20,524 nt of DNA, taken from a virus. The stretch's first letter is position 1, and every line of letters begins with the position of its first letter. The notes beneath the pieces were generated by a model. The model was not told the origin of the DNA, made no database searches, and was given only the letters and a program-made list of their open reading frames with translations. The DNA is taken from IMG/VR virus record IMGVR_UViG_3300030117_001136, positions 1-20,524 of that record, one strand, 5' to 3'. Positions 12,243-20,457 of the stretch are shown here, in pieces. The position numbers and the translations under genes were made by a program.

Positions 12243-14942
12243 TTAACTTGCGTTACAGAATGAAACTGGATGACGTACCGCCACGTCTACACTCTGAAGC
12301 GCCACGATTCGTACTGTTCCAGAAGTAGAATTCGTAAACGGATCAACAGTTATATCTAAACCACCAAAGAACCCAATTAATAGGTCATTGAAGTTACCGA
12401 ACACATAGTTGTTAGCAGTTAATTGATTAGAAACTACTACAGGATAACCATTTACTTGTCCATTTTCTGCAACAAATAAACCACTACCTGAATCTTTAGC
12501 AGTTGTTTTCAAAGTACCAAAGTTAGTAGGATTAATAATATAAGCTAAATCTCCTACTAAAGCATTATCAACAGCTACAGCAGTTTCAATAGAAACCATT
12601 TCTGCAAAAGTTGGTGCAGCAGCACTACTTAAAGAAACAGTATTTATTCCTGAAGTATTAGTAATACCTCTTGGATTTCCACTTGAACCACTACCTTCTA
12701 ATGCACCATCATCAATTGCAATTGCCATTGATTTAGCTAAATCATCACGAATTAAGTTTTCAACATCTAAAGATGATTGAAGCATTAATTGACGAGTAAC
12801 GTCTGTGTGTACGCCAACAGTTTTTGGAGTCATAGTAACAGAACCTATCACCATTTCAGATTCACCTGAAGCACCACCTTCTGAACTAATAAAAGCGGCA
12901 GAAGCGGCAGATGTTTTCTTAGGAATCTTAACATCGCCTGTCAAGCCATTTAGATTAGTAGCTAATGGCATTACAGCAGAAGCGTTTCTGAGAACGTCAA
13001 TGAAACTTTCAGGCCTAAAGTCTTGTCCAATAAGACCAGCATCGTCAGATGCGTTTAAATCCCTAGTGTTCCAATTAGCCATAACTTCAGGTGGTAACAT
13101 AATACCTTGTGCAGTTCTGCCATAGTGTTTTGATGCTTGTTCTGAACATTCAAATTCAAACTCTGCATCTCTTTGCGCTTTTCTATCAGAAGGATTTGCT
13201 AAAGCATTGATTGCCTTCATAAGTGAAAATTGTCGCACCTCTTTTTTTGTCATGCCAATATCAGCAGTTTCTAAAGGTTTATCAGTCGCTATTTGGTCTA
13301 ATAAGATTCCTCTAAATTCTTCTACTGAGTTGCCATCTTGAATCGCCTTGTCAGCTAAATCCCTTCTGTTGTGTCTAACAGCTAAATCCATAATTTCTTT
13401 TGAATTTCTTACAAATTCAGCTTTAGCTTCAGCAACAGATTGTTCTCTAACTTCATCAAGGTTAATTTCATTTTTAACTTCTTCAGTCATTGTTTTTACC
13501 TTTATAGTAGATTGTTTATCTTGTGAACGACCTACTCCAACTTCAGATGAAGAATCTGCTGGTACAGAAACAACCGATACCTCTAAAGGTGTCGTTTGTA
13601 CTCTGAACATAGGCTTTTCATCTTTGTTCCCTCTGACTCGTTCCATGCCATTTATTTTGTAGCCAACGCTGATATTTTGACGAATACCATCTTTGACATC
13701 TTGAAATATTTCTTCTGCAAGTTCACTTCGACCAAAGCGAACTATTGCCTTTGCACTTTTTGTTGCAGAATCAATTTCGTATCTTTCGACCACACCAATC
13801 TGTTTTGTCATGTCATGGTCTAAAAGTAAAGGACTTCTGCCACTACCAATAAAGCTAGTGTCAATGTCCTCTTCAGAGTGTGAGATTATCTCCATGCCAA
13901 AATCTCTTTCAACAGGTTCTTCGGAACTAACGCCGATTCTCACCCTTCTGTTTTCTTCATCGATATAAGATGCTCTTGTAAGGTCTAGTGTTCGATAGAC
14001 AATATCGGACTTATCTAGTCTTTGTTCTTCATCTTTATCTTTTTCTTCATCGTGGTATGGTCGAGATTCCATCATTTCTTTGTCATCATCTTCCATACTT
14101 TCCATCATATCCCCATGTTTCGCAAACGATATAACATAAGTATCGTCTGTTTCTTCAACATTGAGAATATGTCTATCTTCTTTATATTCCATAGATTTAT
14201 CCTCTTTGTTTTTGGTTGATAAAGGATGCCCTTCAGGAAGTAAGTCTTGATCGTGCTTACCACCCTGAAATCTTCCATTTCGCAAAGCGAAAAGAAAACT
14301 GTTTACTCGTGCATACGCCCATTGTTCAGCAGAACCAACATTTGGTCTGACCGATGCTGGATTGGTTTTATATGCACCTATACCTCTTTCAAATACTGCA
14401 AGAAGTGTTCTGTAAGTTGTTCTTTTAGTAGTTGCATTTCCTACTTCTTCATTATGTTCTTCTACTTTTTTTCTCAAGCCTTTTTCAACAGTATCAGATA
14501 CTTGTCTGTCTTGTTGTGCTTGACTAGCTGAACCTGATTCTTTTTGTTCTACATATTTGATAGCTTCTAATATTACATCTTTCATACCTTGTTCACCAAG
14601 AGTTCCTATGACTCCCCATTTTGCCTGTGCAATAACTCCGCCTATATTTGATGGTCTTCCAGCTTTATCTCCTGACTTAAACTGTTTGCCATCTTCAAAA
14701 TGTCTAGCCGCCCATGCTTCTCGTTCTTTAATCCATCTGATGACACCAGCAGTTTCTTCACCATCTCTTGCTTTAGTCCATAAATTAAATGCTTCGTTAC
14801 CTCTAATATTGCCACCAGCTTTATAGATGTCAGGATCATTTTCTTTAACACCAGCAATAAATCCATAATCAAACTGCGGATAATTAGAGTTTCTCAAACT
14901 GATTTTTTTATCCTCACCTTTTGTTGGAAAATCAGTTGCCAT
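12243..14942 (-). CDS. Fused N-terminal module, HK97-type prohead protease and major capsid protein
   Basis: 899 residues from ATG 14942 (GAGGGTGGC upstream; an earlier TTG at 14975 is less likely). Residue numbers below count from that TTG. Region A, about 25-255: 'FERGIGAYKTNPASVRP', 'EQWAYARVNSFLFALRNGRF', 'DLLPEGHPLS', a module recurrent in marine phages with no known role to me. Region B, about 262-485: HK97-family (S78/U35-like) prohead protease with His387 (LLLDHD), Ser436 (NISVGY) and Glu465 (TPLEVSVVSVPAD). Region C, about 496-910: a helical delta-like scaffold then an HK97-fold capsid (SFIDVLRNASAVMPLA, IPKKTSAASAAFI, GSSGNPRGI). It would make, cut and assemble the head shell. Two internal ribosome binding sites precede B and C. 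It overlaps the portal by 11 bp. Confidence 0.88.
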   Translation of the reverse strand: MATDFPTKGEDKKISLRNSNYPQFDYGFIAGVKENDPDIYKAGGNIRGNEAFNLWTKARDGEETAGVIRWIKEREAWAARHFEDGKQFKSGDKAGRPSNIGGVIAQAKWGVIGTLGEQGMKDVILEAIKYVEQKESGSASQAQQDRQVSDTVEKGLRKKVEEHNEEVGNATTKRTTYRTLLAVFERGIGAYKTNPASVRPNVGSAEQWAYARVNSFLFALRNGRFQGGKHDQDLLPEGHPLSTKNKEDKSMEYKEDRHILNVEETDDTYVISFAKHGDMMESMEDDDKEMMESRPYHDEEKDKDEEQRLDKSDIVYRTLDLTRASYIDEENRRVRIGVSSEEPVERDFGMEIISHSEEDIDTSFIGSGRSPLLLDHDMTKQIGVVERYEIDSATKSAKAIVRFGRSELAEEIFQDVKDGIRQNISVGYKINGMERVRGNKDEKPMFRVQTTPLEVSVVSVPADSSSEVGVGRSQDKQSTIKVKTMTEEVKNEINLDEVREQSVAEAKAEFVRNSKEIMDLAVRHNRRDLADKAIQDGNSVEEFRGILLDQIATDKPLETADIGMTKKEVRQFSLMKAINALANPSDRKAQRDAEFEFECSEQASKHYGRTAQGIMLPPEVMANWNTRDLNASDDAGLIGQDFRPESFIDVLRNASAVMPLATNLNGLTGDVKIPKKTSAASAAFISSEGGASGESEMVIGSVTMTPKTVGVHTDVTRQLMLQSSLDVENLIRDDLAKSMAIAIDDGALEGSGSSGNPRGITNTSGINTVSLSSAAAPTFAEMVSIETAVAVDNALVGDLAYIINPTNFGTLKTTAKDSGSGLFVAENGQVNGYPVVVSNQLTANNYVFGNFNDLLIGFFGGLDITVDPFTNSTSGTVRIVALQSVDVAVRHPVSFCNAS
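13488..13503 (-). promoter_or_regulatory. Internal ribosome binding site and start before the capsid part
   Basis: Minus-strand AAAGG (13503-13499), 8 nt, then ATG at 13490. The ATG is in frame with the long capsid ORF and opens MTEEVKNEINLDEVREQ, just after the protease domain ends and where a separate HK97-type capsid gene with a delta domain would begin. Translation from here would give a 415-residue capsid precursor, a normal size for the family. Confidence 0.6.
14190..14207 (-). promoter_or_regulatory. Internal ribosome binding site and start before the protease part
   Basis: Minus-strand AAAGAGG (14207-14201), 8 nt, then ATG at 14192, in frame with the long capsid ORF. It opens MEYKEDRHILNVEETDD, immediately after the 'GHPLSTKNKED' end of the N-terminal module. 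This is one of the better Shine-Dalgarno matches in the window and could give a protease-capsid protein lacking the N-terminal module. Confidence 0.6.
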
Positions 14943-16440
14943 CGCCACCCTCGCCACCCTGAATGTCAGCCTCAACAGGCATCTTCATTCCGAAAGGTTG
15001 AAATGCTGTTTTAACACCATATTGCTCTGCCAACTTCTGTTCTCTTTCATGTTGCTCAAACAACTCCTCAACATCTCTACCATAGTTTGCTTGAACATCT
15101 TGAAATGTTACTAGACCTGACTGCATACCACTTATAGAAGCCATCATTTCTTTTTGTGGATCAACCCACGAAAAACTTCTTGGTATAAAGTTTGCTGAAT
15201 TAGCAAACTTATCGTATCTGCTCATTGGCAAAGGTTGGTTGGTACTTGGAGATGTTGAGATAGCACCACTTGATATTGACATCTCTAACCATTTTTCAAA
15301 TACAGGTCTAACGAAATGGTCAATGGTAAATCTTTGGTACAGTCTGTACATTTCACGATCTTCTAATGCACCAGCCCTTAATGAACTGTAATTTACAGAA
15401 CTAAGGTCATTGGTTAAAGCGTGATAAGAAATATTTAAACCTGATGCAATACTTCTTAAAACTTGTGTACTGAATGATTCAAAAGCTGATGTTGGATGGT
15501 CAGGATCAAAAGATTTGAAATCCATTCCTGCTGGTAGTTGTTCAAATGTTCCAGCTTCAGCGTTCATTATTGGTACATATTCTTCATCTTCGCCATCTCC
15601 TACATAGCCATCACCATCAGGAGAAACAAAGAAACCCATCTTACTTGCTGATACTCTTGCAGAAACTATTTCAGCTTCTAAATAACCATTCAATAATTTT
15701 ATATTTGCCATAGCAGATGATGTAAATGGCACACCTCTATTTTGTTCAGGTCTATTTGGAATGTAAGCGTGGATTAATTCTTCTGCATTTACTCTAATAT
15801 GTTTTTGTGTTGAATAGTATTGGTTATCAAATGGATGATTTTTAAAGAGATAATAAGCAACAGGTTTGTTACTTGCATTTAACTCAACGCCCATTTTTAT
15901 TTTATTACCACCCTTTTCAGGATTGTCATTTTTAGTTTCGTCTAAATGATCTGCTTCTAAAAACTCTATCTGATAACCAAACTCTGAATCTCTTGACTTG
16001 ACATGACGAACTAATACTTCGCCATCTCTTGCTAAAGATTCAATAAATAATTTTTGACAGTCTATAAATGTTAATCTGCCATTGGTTGTGCAGTTTCCTA
16101 AACGACACCATTGATGCCATTTTTCTTCAATGATTCTGTTAGCTATCAAATCCAAACTGCCATCATCATTTCTTGCTTTCATTGATAAACGAATACCGTT
16201 GTTGCCAACAACATTGGATTGCATAAGATTTAAATATCTTTGTACATAGCTGTCGTTTCTTGCTAAATCTCTTGATCTATCTCTTAGCAATCTGAGATTG
16301 GTTTTTATTTCTTCATCAGCAGATGTAGAAGTTTGTAAGAAATCAGAAAATAATCTGCTGGTACTTGCACCATTGTATTTTCTTAAATTAAGAGTTTTTC
16401 TTCTTTTCGGTTTTCTTGTAAATCTGTCGTACCAAGCCAT
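14932..16440 (-). CDS. B: Portal protein, lambda gpB family
   Basis: 502 residues. N-terminal 'RLLRDRSRDLARNDSYVQRY' followed by 'NLMQSNVVGNNGIRLSM' is the signature of lambda-type (Phage_portal_2) portals. Further landmarks are 'FIESLARDGEVLVRHV', 'GVPFTSSAMANIKLLNGYLEAE', 'DLSSVNYSSLRAGALEDRE' and a C-terminal 'WVDPQKE...GLVTFQDVQANYGRDVEELFEQHE' helix. Twelve copies form the ring at the head vertex through which DNA is packaged. Length and order (terminase, W-like, portal) match lambda. ATG overlaps the upstream stop by one base. The C-terminus is Gly/Asp-rich and overlaps the capsid ORF. Confidence 0.95.
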   Translation of the reverse strand: MAWYDRFTRKPKRRKTLNLRKYNGASTSRLFSDFLQTSTSADEEIKTNLRLLRDRSRDLARNDSYVQRYLNLMQSNVVGNNGIRLSMKARNDDGSLDLIANRIIEEKWHQWCRLGNCTTNGRLTFIDCQKLFIESLARDGEVLVRHVKSRDSEFGYQIEFLEADHLDETKNDNPEKGGNKIKMGVELNASNKPVAYYLFKNHPFDNQYYSTQKHIRVNAEELIHAYIPNRPEQNRGVPFTSSAMANIKLLNGYLEAEIVSARVSASKMGFFVSPDGDGYVGDGEDEEYVPIMNAEAGTFEQLPAGMDFKSFDPDHPTSAFESFSTQVLRSIASGLNISYHALTNDLSSVNYSSLRAGALEDREMYRLYQRFTIDHFVRPVFEKWLEMSISSGAISTSPSTNQPLPMSRYDKFANSANFIPRSFSWVDPQKEMMASISGMQSGLVTFQDVQANYGRDVEELFEQHEREQKLAEQYGVKTAFQPFGMKMPVEADIQGGEGGDGN

Positions 16441-17030
16441 TAGAATTTAACCTCTATTGTATTACCTGACCTTTGTTTGTTTTTGATTCTAGCCTTTTTT
16501 ATTTCTTCTAAATATTCAGAATGATATCTATCTCTGAAAGTTAATAATTCATCTATCGACATTCTTGATAAAGAACGACCAGCTATTGAAAAAGAAGATT
16601 GATCTATTGATGCCCTGTTTTCTAAAACAGCTTCTATGTTATCTAAAACCTTTTTTGCATGACTTCTTAAATCAGCATTGGTATTAGCTAAATTTTTAAC
16701 TACTGTGCTTCTGCCTGTATCAATTCTAATTCTTTGTGAATCCGATGTCCTAGTTATAAAAGCGTTCCAAATATAATCACCATCAGAATAACTAGCTGTA
16801 GTTGAAGATGCTACTTCAACAAAATAAGTATCATCAGCTTCGGTTGCTGTAATATCAAACTTGTGACTGCCACCACCGCCTGAATCTTCGTGGAATTCAT
16901 AAGTAAGTGCATAAGCAGATGTGGGATATTCGTCAGCAATATCATCTCTACGCCACAATAATCTATCGCCTATAACAATAGTGTCAGGTTCTTGTGTTGG
17001 ATAATTGATTCTGTCAAATGCGTTGGACAT
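16440..17030 (-). CDS. Head-completion protein with gpW-like C-terminus
   Basis: 196 residues between terminase and portal, where lambda has gpW (68 residues). The C-terminal 80 residues (VLDNIEAVLENRASIDQS, SIAGRSLSRMSIDELLTFRD, RYHSEYLEEIKKARIKN, GNTIEVKF) show the helix-hairpin-helix layout and 'SIAGRSLSRM' motif of the gpW-like group. The first 110 residues are a beta-rich extra domain ('YALTYEFHEDSGGGGSHKFDI', 'GDYIWNAFITRTSD'). gpW-type proteins plug the portal and help join the tail; the added domain is of unknown role. It is the first minus-strand gene after the plus-strand cassettes, has only a weak ribosome binding site, and may need its own promoter. Confidence 0.72.
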   Translation of the reverse strand: MSNAFDRINYPTQEPDTIVIGDRLLWRRDDIADEYPTSAYALTYEFHEDSGGGGSHKFDITATEADDTYFVEVASSTTASYSDGDYIWNAFITRTSDSQRIRIDTGRSTVVKNLANTNADLRSHAKKVLDNIEAVLENRASIDQSSFSIAGRSLSRMSIDELLTFRDRYHSEYLEEIKKARIKNKQRSGNTIEVKF

Positions 17031-17111
17031 ACTTTAAATACAAAAATTTCTTCTAAAAAAATAGAATTAAAAAGCATTTTATCATTAAAAGATAAATAAA
17101 ATTAATTTAAT

Positions 17112-17125
17112 TTATTTGCAAATAA
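17112..17125. promoter_or_regulatory. Perfect 14-bp palindrome, candidate operator, copy 1
   Basis: TTATTTGCAAATAA reads identically on both strands. It ends 3 bp before the proposed -35 box, a position suited to a repressor or activator dimer. The identical sequence occurs at 17538-17551 before the second cassette. Confidence 0.45.
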
Positions 17126-17128
17126 TAG

Positions 17129-17159
17129 TTGTAATTCTCTGAAAAATCATTAATATAAT
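17129..17159 (+). promoter_or_regulatory. Predicted sigma70-type promoter of cassette 1
   Basis: -35 TTGTAA at 17129-17134 and a perfect -10 TATAAT at 17154-17159, spacer 19 bp (slightly long). It lies in a 140-bp repeat conserved between both cassettes, 30 bp before the gene start, and is followed by AAGGAG at 17177-17182, 6 nt before the ATG. Confidence 0.6.
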
Positions 17160-17188
17160 AATCATAATTTACAAAAAAGGAGAAAATT

Positions 17189-17428
17189 ATGAAAACAGTT
17201 AAATCAAAAAGTTCAGTAAATTTGCACAAACCAATTGAAGTTCAATATAAAAATTGGACAATAAAAAAACCAAATGGTTTTGCTAAATATTGGACTGTTT
17301 ACGATCAAGATAATGTACAACACAGTACACTTTACAGAGATATCAGAAGTATAGATGAAGCTATAGAATATATTGATGAAGAAACTTCAGATATTATTTC
17401 TTTTATAAATATGTCTACTTTCAAATAG
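17189..17428 (+). CDS. Cassette 1 cargo: 79-residue hypothetical protein
   Basis: A plus-strand gene opposing all structural genes. ATG 17189 has a textbook AAGGAG 6 nt upstream. The basic N-terminus (MKTVKSKSSVNLHKPIEV) is followed by a predicted strand-strand unit, 'WTIKKPNGFAKYWTVYDQD', then a helix 'SIDEAIEYIDEETSDI'. I do not recognise a family; small beta-beta-alpha proteins of this shape are common among phage accessory genes. It sits alone between its own promoter and its own strong hairpin terminator, so it is probably transcribed independently of the late operon, as morons are. An anti-defence, exclusion or host-modifying role is possible but speculative. Confidence 0.8.
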   Translation: MKTVKSKSSVNLHKPIEVQYKNWTIKKPNGFAKYWTVYDQDNVQHSTLYRDIRSIDEAIEYIDEETSDIISFINMSTFK

Positions 17429-17434
17429 CTAATC

Positions 17435-17475
17435 AATTCTCCCCCTAGAAGAAAGCCACCTACTCAGGTGGCTTT
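17435..17475 (+). repeat. Cassette terminator repeat, copy 1
   Basis: 41 bp nearly identical (one difference) to 17926-17966. It spans the 3' flank and most of the terminator hairpin, starting just after the cargo stop codon and running into the second leader copy, so terminator and leader form one continuous spacer between the cassettes. Confidence 0.9.
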
Positions 17476-17481
17476 CTTCTA
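17446..17481 (+). terminator. Intrinsic terminator of cassette 1, perfect 16-bp stem
   Basis: TAGAAGAAAGCCACCT pairs perfectly with AGGTGGCTTTCTTCTA across a 4-nt ACTC loop. The T-rich 3' arm (CTTTCTTCT) serves in place of a separate U-tract. Because the stem is a perfect inverted repeat it may also stop minus-strand transcription, though the minus side is followed by a G run. Confidence 0.85.
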
Positions 17482-17537
17482 AAAAGATAGAATTAAAAAG
17501 CATTTTATCGTTAAAAGATAAATAAAATTAATTTAAT

Positions 17538-17551
17538 TTATTTGCAAATAA
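17538..17551. promoter_or_regulatory. Perfect 14-bp palindrome, candidate operator, copy 2
   Basis: TTATTTGCAAATAA, identical to the palindrome at 17112-17125 and at the same distance from the promoter. Confidence 0.45.
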
Positions 17552-17554
17552 TAG

Positions 17555-17585
17555 TTGTAATTCTCTGAAAAATCATTAATATAAT
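17555..17585 (+). promoter_or_regulatory. Predicted sigma70-type promoter of cassette 2
   Basis: Same TTGTAA and TATAAT boxes with a 19-bp spacer as in cassette 1, identical in sequence. The transcript would carry both cassette 2 genes and end at 17938-17971. AAGGAG at 17603-17608 lies 8 nt before ATG 17617. Confidence 0.6.
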
Positions 17586-17616
17586 AATCATAATTTACAA
17601 AAAAGGAGAAAAAAAC

Positions 17617-17784
17617 ATGAAATCATCTTTAGAAATGAAAATAGGCAGAGACAAGGCTCAAACCTATGGAAAGACCACAGGTGGCTATACTCCTAAATTT
17701 GCAAAAATGTCTAAAAGACGTGGTAGCAAAGGTTCTAGGAGAGTAGCTAAACAAAACATAAGGAGAGAGTTATGTATCAAGTAA
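17617..17784 (+). CDS. Cassette 2 cargo A: 55-residue very basic protein
   Basis: ATG 17617 follows the shared leader and its AAGGAG. The 55-residue product starts MKSSLEMKIGRDKAQTYG and holds 'KFAKMSKRRGSKGSRRVAKQ'; 17 Lys/Arg against 3 acidic residues. Such charge suggests nucleic-acid or ribosome binding, but no family is recognised. Its last 13 bp overlap the start of the next gene, and the sequence AAGGAGAGAG within it serves that gene, so the two are coupled. Absence from cassette 1, despite identical flanks, marks it as exchanged cargo. Confidence 0.72.
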   Translation: MKSSLEMKIGRDKAQTYGKTTGGYTPKFAKMSKRRGSKGSRRVAKQNIRRELCIK

Positions 17785-17927
17785 AAATAATTTATAAACA
17801 ACGTGGTATTTGGAAAGATAGATATTATCAAGTCTTTAATAACCAAACTGGAGAAATTGTTAAAGACTATATACAAAAAAGAGTAGCTGATGCTGTAAGT
17901 GAAAATTTAAATCAAGCAATAAATTAA
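17772..17927 (+). CDS. Cassette 2 cargo B: 51-residue hypothetical protein
   Basis: ATG 17772 has AAGGAG upstream, within cargo A. The product begins MYQVKIIYKQRGIWKDRYYQ and continues 'VFNNQTGEIVKDYIQKRVADAVSENLNQ': strands, a turn, then a helix. The order 'Y-Y-x-V-F-N ... D-A-V' loosely parallels 'Y-W-x-V-Y-D ... E-A-I' in the 79-residue cassette 1 protein, so the two may be distant relatives. This is by eye over about 30 residues and could be chance. It ends directly before the conserved terminator flank. Confidence 0.75.
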   Translation: MYQVKIIYKQRGIWKDRYYQVFNNQTGEIVKDYIQKRVADAVSENLNQAIN

Positions 17928-17966
17928 TTCTCCCCTTAGAAGAAAGCCACCTACTCAGGTGGCTTT
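17926..17966 (+). repeat. Cassette terminator repeat, copy 2
   Basis: Second copy of the 41-bp flank at 17435-17475, one C/T difference. It begins within the stop codon of cargo B and ends in the hairpin's 3' arm, where copy 2 continues with a T-run instead of a leader. Confidence 0.9.
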
Positions 17967-17971
17967 TTTTT
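17938..17971 (+). terminator. Terminator of cassette 2, probably bidirectional with terL
   Basis: AAAGCCACCT-ACTC-AGGTGGCTTT stem-loop followed by a run of T. Further A-U and G-U pairs extend the stem outward. The T-run at its right end overlaps the last codon (stop) of the convergent terL gene at 17970. In the minus direction the hairpin is followed by CTTTCTTCT, so it may end terL transcripts as well. Confidence 0.88.
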
Positions 17972-19796
17972 ACCAATCATTAACCCAAGTATTTCTTCTT
18001 CTACGATTGATTAGATTCTTTCTTTTCTCTTGTTTTGGTTGTGCTTCTTGCGATTCGCTTTTGGTTTTTATTTTATTTAGGTTTGGAGAAAGAATATAAA
18101 ATCCAGCGAGAGCATAAACAAAATTATCTAGTGCTTCGTTTCTTTCTCTTGTCTGTTTCCATACTAATTTCTTTTGTCCACGATGAAACTTGATAATTCT
18201 TTTTTCTGCTGTCAGTTGTTTAAAATATTCTTCATCAACTGTGCTTGGGAAATGGATATATCCAGCTTGATCTTCTTCTGCAACATTCAACCAACTAAAC
18301 AAAGTATCTTTGGCAGTATCAGTTCCGATGGGATAAAGACTTACTCTTTGTCTGCCTGATTGTGTTGGCCTATTAGCAATTGGTTTCCCACTTATGCTTT
18401 GACCTTTGATAGCAAATACCCTTCTGCCCTGTCTTGGTTTTACAAAACCATAAACGCTTTGAGTTGCATAACCTGAATCAATACAAGTAATTGCTATTTT
18501 TAATTTATGATTATTTTCTTTGGTGAATGATGATAATAAATATTCATCTAGTTCTTTCCATACTTCCAATTGGTTAGGATCGCCCCAAAAGATTTTGTAT
18601 TCAATTACATAAACCTGATTATCTGCTGACCAACCGACAACTTGTGCTTCTAATCTATCTGACTGACAATCGACACCACAAGTCAAAACTAAAACATTTT
18701 CAGGTATAGTTTCATGGTCATAGTTTTCTCTACGATTCAATAAGCTATCGGATTCTATTTCTTCACCTTTTTCTGCAAAACATTCTCCTAATGATGTATT
18801 TACCCAAACTCGTAATTGTTCAGGATTATTCTTAGCAACTAAAAATGATTCTACAACTTCTTTCCAAGTTCGCCATGATGAATACAATTCATTTAAATGA
18901 AAACCAGCAACACTACTTTTGTTACCTTCTTGAATCCATTTGCCATTTTGCATCATGTAAGGTTTATCGGATTCATCAATAAGAACTCCACAACTCTTGC
19001 AAACATAATTTACATTTTTAAAATCTTCATCCCATTTGATGTTCGACCATTCTAAATGTTGATAGGTCTTACAATGTGGACAAGGCACATGATACTTTCT
19101 TTGGTCTGATGTATTCCAAGCATCTTGGATTCTGCTCATGCCATCTATGGTTGGTGTTGATGTCATTATGATTTTACGATTCCAAAAGGTTGAAGTTCTT
19201 TTTCTTGACAAATCTACAGCATCTCCCTCGGATGTGATTTGGTATCTATCAACCTCGTCAAGCAAAACAATCCTACATGGTCTTGATGATAATGATGCAG
19301 GTGAATTACTTCCTGAGATAACTACAAAACCACCACCAAATGATTTAGATAATATGGTATTGCCACTATCTCTACTTTTGGAATCTTTTACCTTACCTCG
19401 TAAAGCATCAGATGCGGTAATCATTTTAGATAATCTTTGTGTAGAAAAGGCTCTTGCCATTTCTAGTGTTGGCATTACTACCAACATTGGTGCTGGATCG
19501 TGAGCAATGTGATAGCCAAGTATGTTTAAAAGTATTTCTGTCTTGCCAACTTGAGCAGATGACATAATGACAATGGTTTCAATATCTCTGTCATTGAGTG
19601 TGTCCATGATGCCACGCTGATATTCAGCACGACTTGTTTTCCATTGACCAGCTTCTGCACTAGATTCAGAAGTTAGAACTCTGTGATTGTCTGCCCATTC
19701 AGAAACTTTAAGTTTCTTTGGTGGCCTGAACGTCTGTATCGACTGATTCCAAATTATTCTCAGAGTTTTTTGGAAGTCCTGTGTTTGCGAGTTCAT
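17970..19796 (-). CDS. terL: Terminase large subunit, GpA family
   Basis: 608 residues, normal for GpA. 'FRPPKKLKVSEWADNHRVLTSES' opens the family signature. ATPase: Walker A SSAQVGKTE (79-87), Walker B VLLDEVD (177-183), coupling motif STPT (213-216). A zinc-ribbon-like pair CPHC (239-242) and CKSC (266-269) follows. Nuclease: Asp376 (GVDCQSD), Asp440 (CIDSGY) and Asp557 (ALDNFVYALAG) in the expected order. It cuts and pumps the phage genome into the prohead, docking on the portal; GpA-type enzymes usually act at cos sites, so cohesive ends are likely. The start overlaps the small subunit by 89 bp. The C-terminus is basic (INRRRRNTWVNDW). Confidence 0.97.
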   Translation of the reverse strand: MNSQTQDFQKTLRIIWNQSIQTFRPPKKLKVSEWADNHRVLTSESSAEAGQWKTSRAEYQRGIMDTLNDRDIETIVIMSSAQVGKTEILLNILGYHIAHDPAPMLVVMPTLEMARAFSTQRLSKMITASDALRGKVKDSKSRDSGNTILSKSFGGGFVVISGSNSPASLSSRPCRIVLLDEVDRYQITSEGDAVDLSRKRTSTFWNRKIIMTSTPTIDGMSRIQDAWNTSDQRKYHVPCPHCKTYQHLEWSNIKWDEDFKNVNYVCKSCGVLIDESDKPYMMQNGKWIQEGNKSSVAGFHLNELYSSWRTWKEVVESFLVAKNNPEQLRVWVNTSLGECFAEKGEEIESDSLLNRRENYDHETIPENVLVLTCGVDCQSDRLEAQVVGWSADNQVYVIEYKIFWGDPNQLEVWKELDEYLLSSFTKENNHKLKIAITCIDSGYATQSVYGFVKPRQGRRVFAIKGQSISGKPIANRPTQSGRQRVSLYPIGTDTAKDTLFSWLNVAEEDQAGYIHFPSTVDEEYFKQLTAEKRIIKFHRGQKKLVWKQTRERNEALDNFVYALAGFYILSPNLNKIKTKSESQEAQPKQEKRKNLINRRRRNTWVNDW

Positions 19797-20313: not shown

Positions 20314-20457
20314 CTACATTTTAGCTAATTTTTTGCCTAATCTACGTCTTTTGTGCTTATTCATGCTTGAAGTCTTGAGTTTTCGCCTTCCAATGCTGGT
20401 TTTTTTGTATTTATGCTTAACTTCGTTGTAGTTTGTTTCTTTTTTAACTTTAGCCAT
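20314..20457 (-). CDS. 47-residue very basic protein with mS38/bS22-like motif
   Basis: ATG 20457 to TAG 20314. It starts MAKVKKETNYNEVKHKYK and contains 'GRRKLKTSSMNKHKRRRLGK'; 19 Lys/Arg and two acidic residues. The pattern M-x-K-H-K-x-R-x-L-x-K resembles the short basic ribosomal domain of mitochondrial mS38 (AURKAIP1/COX24) and actinobacterial bS22. Such proteins bind rRNA, so a ribosome-directed role is possible; a general DNA or RNA binding role is equally compatible with the charge. No strong ribosome binding site precedes it (AAGATAAAAA only). It heads the operon visible here. Family membership is inferred from about 12 residues. Confidence 0.65.
   Translation of the reverse strand: MAKVKKETNYNEVKHKYKKTSIGRRKLKTSSMNKHKRRRLGKKLAKM

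Follow-up and report, generated by a model that had tools for sequence, protein, structure and literature searches.

Small gene cassettes beside terL point to multi-site cassette exchange in AT-rich marine phages

Results

Two cassettes with different cargo in one frame

We analysed a 20,524-nucleotide stretch of marine phage DNA with a G+C content of ~34% (IMGVR_UViG_3300030117_001136, positions 1 to 20,524; hereafter the window), in which two small gene cassettes, A and B, lie between terL and the head-tail joining gene. This junction is likely to be one of about four docking sites (here site 1) at which AT-rich, probably lytic marine phages of the CRP-822 type exchange such cassettes. Each unit comprises a leader, one or two genes and a hairpin on the plus strand, and both flanking genes are on the minus strand. 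Repeats, open reading frames (ORFs) and hairpins bear out the two tandem leader-gene-terminator units with different cargo that an earlier note on this DNA had described.

The direct repeat of 140 nt (17047-17186 and 17473-17612) has mismatches only at 17060/17486 and 17084/17510. The earlier note had read all of it as leader; the repeat is exactly as described, but ~68 nt of it are ordinary backbone upstream of the head-tail gene, which cassette-free relatives have too. Set against empty alleles, the cassette begins after ...AATTTA, at 17115 (A) and 17541 (B), and ends at the hairpin. The terminator repeat (17431-17481 and 17922-17972) spans 51 nt with 92% identity and, as had been noted, the 41 nt from AATTCTCCCC (17435 and 17926) show, by eye, a single base difference between the copies. 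Both hairpins fold far better than shuffled sequences (-26.7 and -21.2 kcal/mol; z -9.1 and -6.7), in agreement with a terminator of its own for each unit. A T run is present in copy B and interrupted in copy A. A consensus scan lists no terminator-like site in the window, in our view because the T tract is interrupted in A and absorbed into the stem in B. The cassette leader is kept in 20 or more relatives and at other sites, and may contain a promoter. In the late direction the order is terL, the head-tail joining gene, the portal and then a fused protease-capsid gene, all on the minus strand. The cassettes had been placed between terL and the gpW/portal genes, on the opposite strand; position and strands are correct, but the neighbour belongs to PHROG 5774 and is not strictly a gpW.

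Varied cargo and empty alleles at site 1

From 164 terL relatives in IMG/VR the best 80 were kept, a set chosen without requiring GGAGAAAATTATG. Site 1 was compared in 36 IMG/VR contigs with the same backbone flank, of which four that end inside the site were omitted. Among the 32 resolved alleles, 4 are empty (L004, L133, L135 and L139) and 28 are filled, so that both presence and cargo vary at the terL-portal junction. The filled sites hold 19 cargo families (defined by blastp linkage, window included; Chao1 ~32), with unrelated lengths of 58-172 aa and varying gene numbers. Together with the empty allele, this diversity upholds the idea of exchangeable cargo in a conserved frame. In empty alleles ~82 nt separate terL from the head-tail gene, and the site itself forms a 25-nt inverted repeat, GTAAATTAACTTAAATTTAATTTAC, which carries a paired change (A-to-G and T-to-C) in L133 and could be a hairpin or a protein site. 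The cultured phages CRP-406 and CRP-811 likewise have no insert at this junction, so the extra genes are absent at the same spot in relatives, as expected of morons.

Two diverged relatives, L033 and L045, also carry genes at the terL/head-tail junction, and for this reason we consider it an insertion hotspot beyond this clade. Their genes run in the late-operon direction; by eye, the one in L033 is possibly PAPS-reductase-like.

The same cargo at different sites

Leader-type searches and a unit finder collected 93 units in 48 families, which fall, by their neighbour genes, at four recurrent sites. Site 1, at the terL/head-tail junction, runs against the late operon and ends in a hairpin. Sites 2 and 4, which diverge from each other, lie in the early region; a hairpin closes site 2, and the cargo of site 4 continues into the gene that follows. 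Site 3 is flanked by a RecE-like exonuclease gene (PHROG 434) and the lysis genes (holin, endolysin) and ends in a hairpin. Seven families occur at two sites each: F2 and F15 (sites 1 and 3), F3 and F14 (1 and 2), F4 (2 and 4), F5 (2 and 3) and F6 (3 and 4). Cargo A belongs to F2, every other member of which stands at site 3, behind the RecE-like exonuclease gene (L150, L158, L179 and a more distant copy in L164). The site-1 gene of L026 matches an early-region gene of L084, and leaders of the same type precede early-region genes in record G001. The frame, which had been regarded as a feature of the terL-portal locus, is indeed found there, but it also serves three other sites, and cargos pass from one site to another. 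As a separate observation, a gene for a PD-(D/E)XK_3 protein (L084:512-925, minus strand) adjoins a primase-helicase gene.

Joints of exchange

In copies of a cargo at different sites, homology ends mostly near the ribosome-binding site (RBS) and start codon and just before the hairpin; therefore, it is mostly the bare gene that moves. The match of cargo A to its counterpart in L158 begins 25 nt ahead of the ATG and extends to CTnATCAATTCTCCCC past the stop, and outside it promoter and hairpin are those of the local site. In L091, cargo B stands alone at site 1 with a different promoter: the leader is identical to that of the window up to 17562 except at 17510, another promoter follows, and then the common start patch. 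Of its two genes, the 55-aa gene has diverged from the window copy (synonymous divergence, dS, 0.98) and the 51-aa gene is nearly identical (dS 0.08), which puts a breakpoint near the inner RBS, at ~17745-17771. The AAGGAGAAAATTATG patch is a conserved start-associated sequence upstream of many cargo genes, although it was partly selected for by the scan patterns.

Cargo and backbone also differ in their history. Pairs that have a cargo in common are often much closer at synonymous sites in the cargo (dS ~0 to 0.04) than in the backbone (mostly 0.2 to 0.4). For L095/L009, a cargo dS of 0 compares with 0.32 for terL, 0.23 for the head-tail gene and 0.37 for the portal; the corresponding values are 0.04 against 0.35, 0.42 and 0.28 for L011/L006, and 0 against 0.08, 0.39 and 0.39 for L007/L104. 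Of the proposal that cassettes come and go by recombination in the flanks, exchange itself stands; the frame, by contrast, is mostly resident and largely the bare gene is swapped.

Unrelated site-4 proteins end in ESTNS, most of them in GENNESTNS (L150:5229-5453, minus; L160:2082-2426, plus; L154:217-546, plus; L167:184-378, plus). Their last codons are common because each cargo reads on through the RBS/start of the gene that follows, and the ends look as if fused there by recombination.

A model of exchange and points against it

We propose that each site keeps its leader, consisting of a putative early promoter and an RBS, and that three of the four sites also keep the hairpin, the space between being occupied by a small, fast-changing gene or gene pair. 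Cargo would be replaced by recombination at short conserved patches. The left one would be AAGGAGAAAATTATG, at the RBS/start codon, and the right one either AATTCTCCCC or the foot of the hairpin; the phage's own RecE-like exonuclease would probably assist. Because they run against the late operon, the cassettes would most likely be early lytic genes for host take-over or for countering host defence. A more specific version, which we put forward only tentatively, has the RBS/start and 3′ patches serving as gene-precise joints that move bare ORFs among about four sites with resident promoters and terminators, drawn from a common stock of 48 or more cargo families that would counter host defences at an early stage.

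Several observations weigh against exchange as we describe it. A sigma-70 consensus scan of the window finds promoter-like sites no more numerous than in shuffled sequences. The 55-aa gene of the window and L091 is more diverged than the backbone, so that not every cargo is a recent arrival. Pattern scans for leader-type units required GGAGAAAATTATG, which makes conservation of this patch partly a matter of ascertainment. The sample contains near-duplicates of one phage (L022/L089, L088/L093 and L011/L140), which were treated as clonal pairs in the exchange test. Finally, support for the window tandem comes from a single assembled contig, whose 'terminator + leader' join has 0 matches in other IMG/VR contigs. 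That join had been suggested as a search handle; the leader alone does retrieve relatives.

Origin of the tandem

The link between A and B is the ~68-nt backbone flank, which has TTTCTTCT in common with the hairpin end. The tandem probably arose by an unequal join at this short homology, between two cassette-bearing genomes or within one, in which the hairpin of one cassette was joined to the backbone flank of another, bringing A and B into one genome. As both leaders have the same promoter allele, a duplication with later exchange of cargo, or parents that were close relatives, would be favoured. That an assembler instead joined two strains with different single cassettes seems unlikely to us. 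Cargo B does occur as a single cassette in L091, and the join is unique to the window contig; however, single-cassette strains lack the join from hairpin to backbone that such an assembly path would need, and the two leaders differ at two positions. Moreover, L077, from a diverged lineage, has an independent tandem at the terL/head-tail junction, with near-identical leaders, identical hairpins and different cargo.

Phage group and other explanations

The nearest cultured terL sequences are those of Roseobacter phages CRP-406, 811 and 82x (47-49%); the head-tail gene matches those of cultured CRP phages at 38-41%, and the order terL, head-tail gene, portal is the same. By sequence, we assign the window's phage group to the CRP-822-type family, named in a 2025 paper in which nearly all of its members are reported to lack integrase and the predicted hosts of low-GC members are SAR86, SAR11 or Roseobacter NAC11-7 (PMC12629253). 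The G+C content of the window would fit that low-GC subgroup. Among the early ORFs scanned there was no integrase apart from a weak PHROG match in a 76-aa ORF, and the window DNA found no match in the phage collection.

The earlier note had called the cassettes moron-like; as classical morons they would be accessory genes expressed from an integrated prophage and altering host phenotype. Independent leader and hairpin units that run in reverse to the late operon and are absent in some relatives are in keeping with this, but we hold it to be quite improbable. The leaders recur in the early region, and a leader 20-mer had only four exact matches in GTDB genomes (Emticicia, Cytophagaceae, Clostridia), taken as chance; a 35-nt exact leader search, too strict a query, gave no match. 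As the family is reported to lack integrase and is probably lytic, a prophage moron fits poorly and an early infection gene better.

We give slightly less credit still to integron-like, site-specific cassettes, in which a recombinase would act on a palindromic att-like site, here the A/T palindrome that borders site 1 on the left. Insertion directly at the palindrome edge and the inverted repeat of the empty allele, with its paired change in L133, agree with such a process. By eye, though, sites 2 and 3 lack that palindrome yet have cargos in common, joints vary between pairs, and the early ORFs scanned offer no integrase candidate beyond the weak match above. Divergence in place, by which one ancestral gene per site changed beyond recognition without exchange, is barely credible: a single superfamily supplies several cargos and is high in dN/dS for this set (below), but empty alleles, different gene numbers, unrelated lengths and above all the presence of almost the same cargo at different sites and in backbones that have diverged contradict it.

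Cargo proteins

An iterative hidden Markov model search joined 17 proteins from several sites in one divergent small superfamily with a YKG..TI motif. The ratio of nonsynonymous to synonymous divergence (dN/dS) stays under 1 for almost every pair of cargos compared, and we therefore regard the cargos as real genes; it is 0.07 for the 55-aa gene and 1.23 for one F2 pair, and in the YKG superfamily it is high for this set, mostly 0.4-0.9. AlphaFold models show three strands and a helix for cargo A (pLDDT 74) and a hairpin and a helix for cargo B2 (pLDDT 72); a fold search with the cargo A model gave no significant match (best viral E 0.01). None of the cargos scanned, in the window or elsewhere, was placed in a convincing family by Pfam, PHROG or PADLOC, except F3, which matches PHROG 17208, a family of unknown function. 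In the phage collection, cargos A, B1 and B2 had no protein match; F0, F3 and F9 matched only distantly and in part, and most of the proteins matched are hypothetical. Given their turnover, small size, position and orientation, the cargos are candidates for early host take-over or counter-defence genes.

Features of the locus are collected in Table 1. Elsewhere in the window, a 47-aa, very basic ORF without PHROG match (20314-20457, minus) lies upstream of the gene for the small terminase, close to where the contig ends, and a tail-fibre-like ORF (678-2303, minus) has a terminal segment that, by eye, resembles an intramolecular chaperone domain.

Table 1. Features of docking site 1 and its borders in the window
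Feature	Position	Strand	Remarks
Portal	14932..16440	-	lambda type
Head-tail joining protein gene	16440..17030	-	PHROG 5774; left border of docking site 1
Backbone flank upstream of head-tail gene	17031..17114	+	resident; ends in A/T palindrome 17092-17115; variant form in cassette-free relatives
Cassette A leader	17115..17188	+	starts TTTGCAAATAATAG (17115); RBS GGAGAAAA (17179)
Putative -35 of leader A	17129-17134	+	TTGTAA; possible promoter element
Putative -10 of leader A	17151-17159	+	TAATAT/TATAAT; possible promoter element
Cargo A	17189..17428	+	79 aa; YKG..TI superfamily; L150 and L158 have near-identical copies at site 3
Cassette A 3′ joint AATTCTCCCC and hairpin	17435..17481	+	stem 17446-17461 / 17466-17481
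Duplicated backbone flank, A-to-B link	17473..17540	+	begins within TTTCTTCT, common to hairpin end
Cassette B leader	17541..17616	+	same as leader A over 17541-17612, then AACATG start context
Cargo B1	17617..17784	+	55 aa, basic; ortholog in L091 (dS 0.98, dN 0.06)
Cargo B2	17772..17927	+	51 aa, overlaps B1; 98% identity in L091 (dS 0.08)
Cassette B 3′ joint AATTCTCCCC and hairpin	17926..17972	+	T run ends in terL stop codon
terL	17970..19796	-	Pfam GpA; right border of docking site 1

Discussion

The closest precedents, by analogy, are the promoter-early stem-loop (PeSL) cassettes of T4-like phages (Arbiol 2010 and Comeau 2014, as cited in PMC4503421) and the start-associated sequences (SAS/ESAS) of cluster K mycobacteriophages; the arrangement described here appears close to them in kind and different in architecture, joints and phage group. 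PeSLs are composite motifs of a hairpin and early-type promoter between small accessory genes. Here too a leader and hairpin motif, with a putative promoter part, is repeated, at 17435-17612, in L077 and in the early region of G001. However, these uncultured marine phages have a lambda-type packaging module (GpA-type terL, lambda portal, fused protease-capsid) and are not T4-like myoviruses; their docking sites, about four, are fixed and have promoters and terminators specific to each site, one site lying antisense inside the late operon, and the shuffling joints map to the RBS/start and a 3′ patch rather than to a whole promoter-hairpin motif. The mycobacteriophage repeats likewise place a conserved sequence at the starts of many small genes, an analogous rather than homologous feature, and their authors suggested them as possible recombination targets; the motif described there has no terminator frame, whereas here cross-site moves with start-patch joints are seen directly (PMC3203893).

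Other systems share single aspects. A lambdoid moron, too, is an additional gene that sits among core genes with a leader and hairpin of its own and that relatives lack, but our phages show no sign of lysogeny and have many interchangeable cargos at one site. The defence hotspots of P2 and P4 combine fixed loci with variable cargo, yet in temperate phages and satellites and with known defence systems (PMC9122126); here the cargos are small orphan genes with no defence family recognised, in a family reported without integrase. In contrast to integrons, no att-like element common to the sites is apparent by eye.

The leader provides a sequence handle with which dozens of small, rapidly exchanged genes may be harvested from phages of abundant, mostly uncultured ocean bacteria. 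Furthermore, the joints of phage mosaicism can here be read at the nucleotide level, the same cargo being found with a different promoter and a different terminator. Genes exchanged so fast are good candidates for functions in host take-over or counter-defence.
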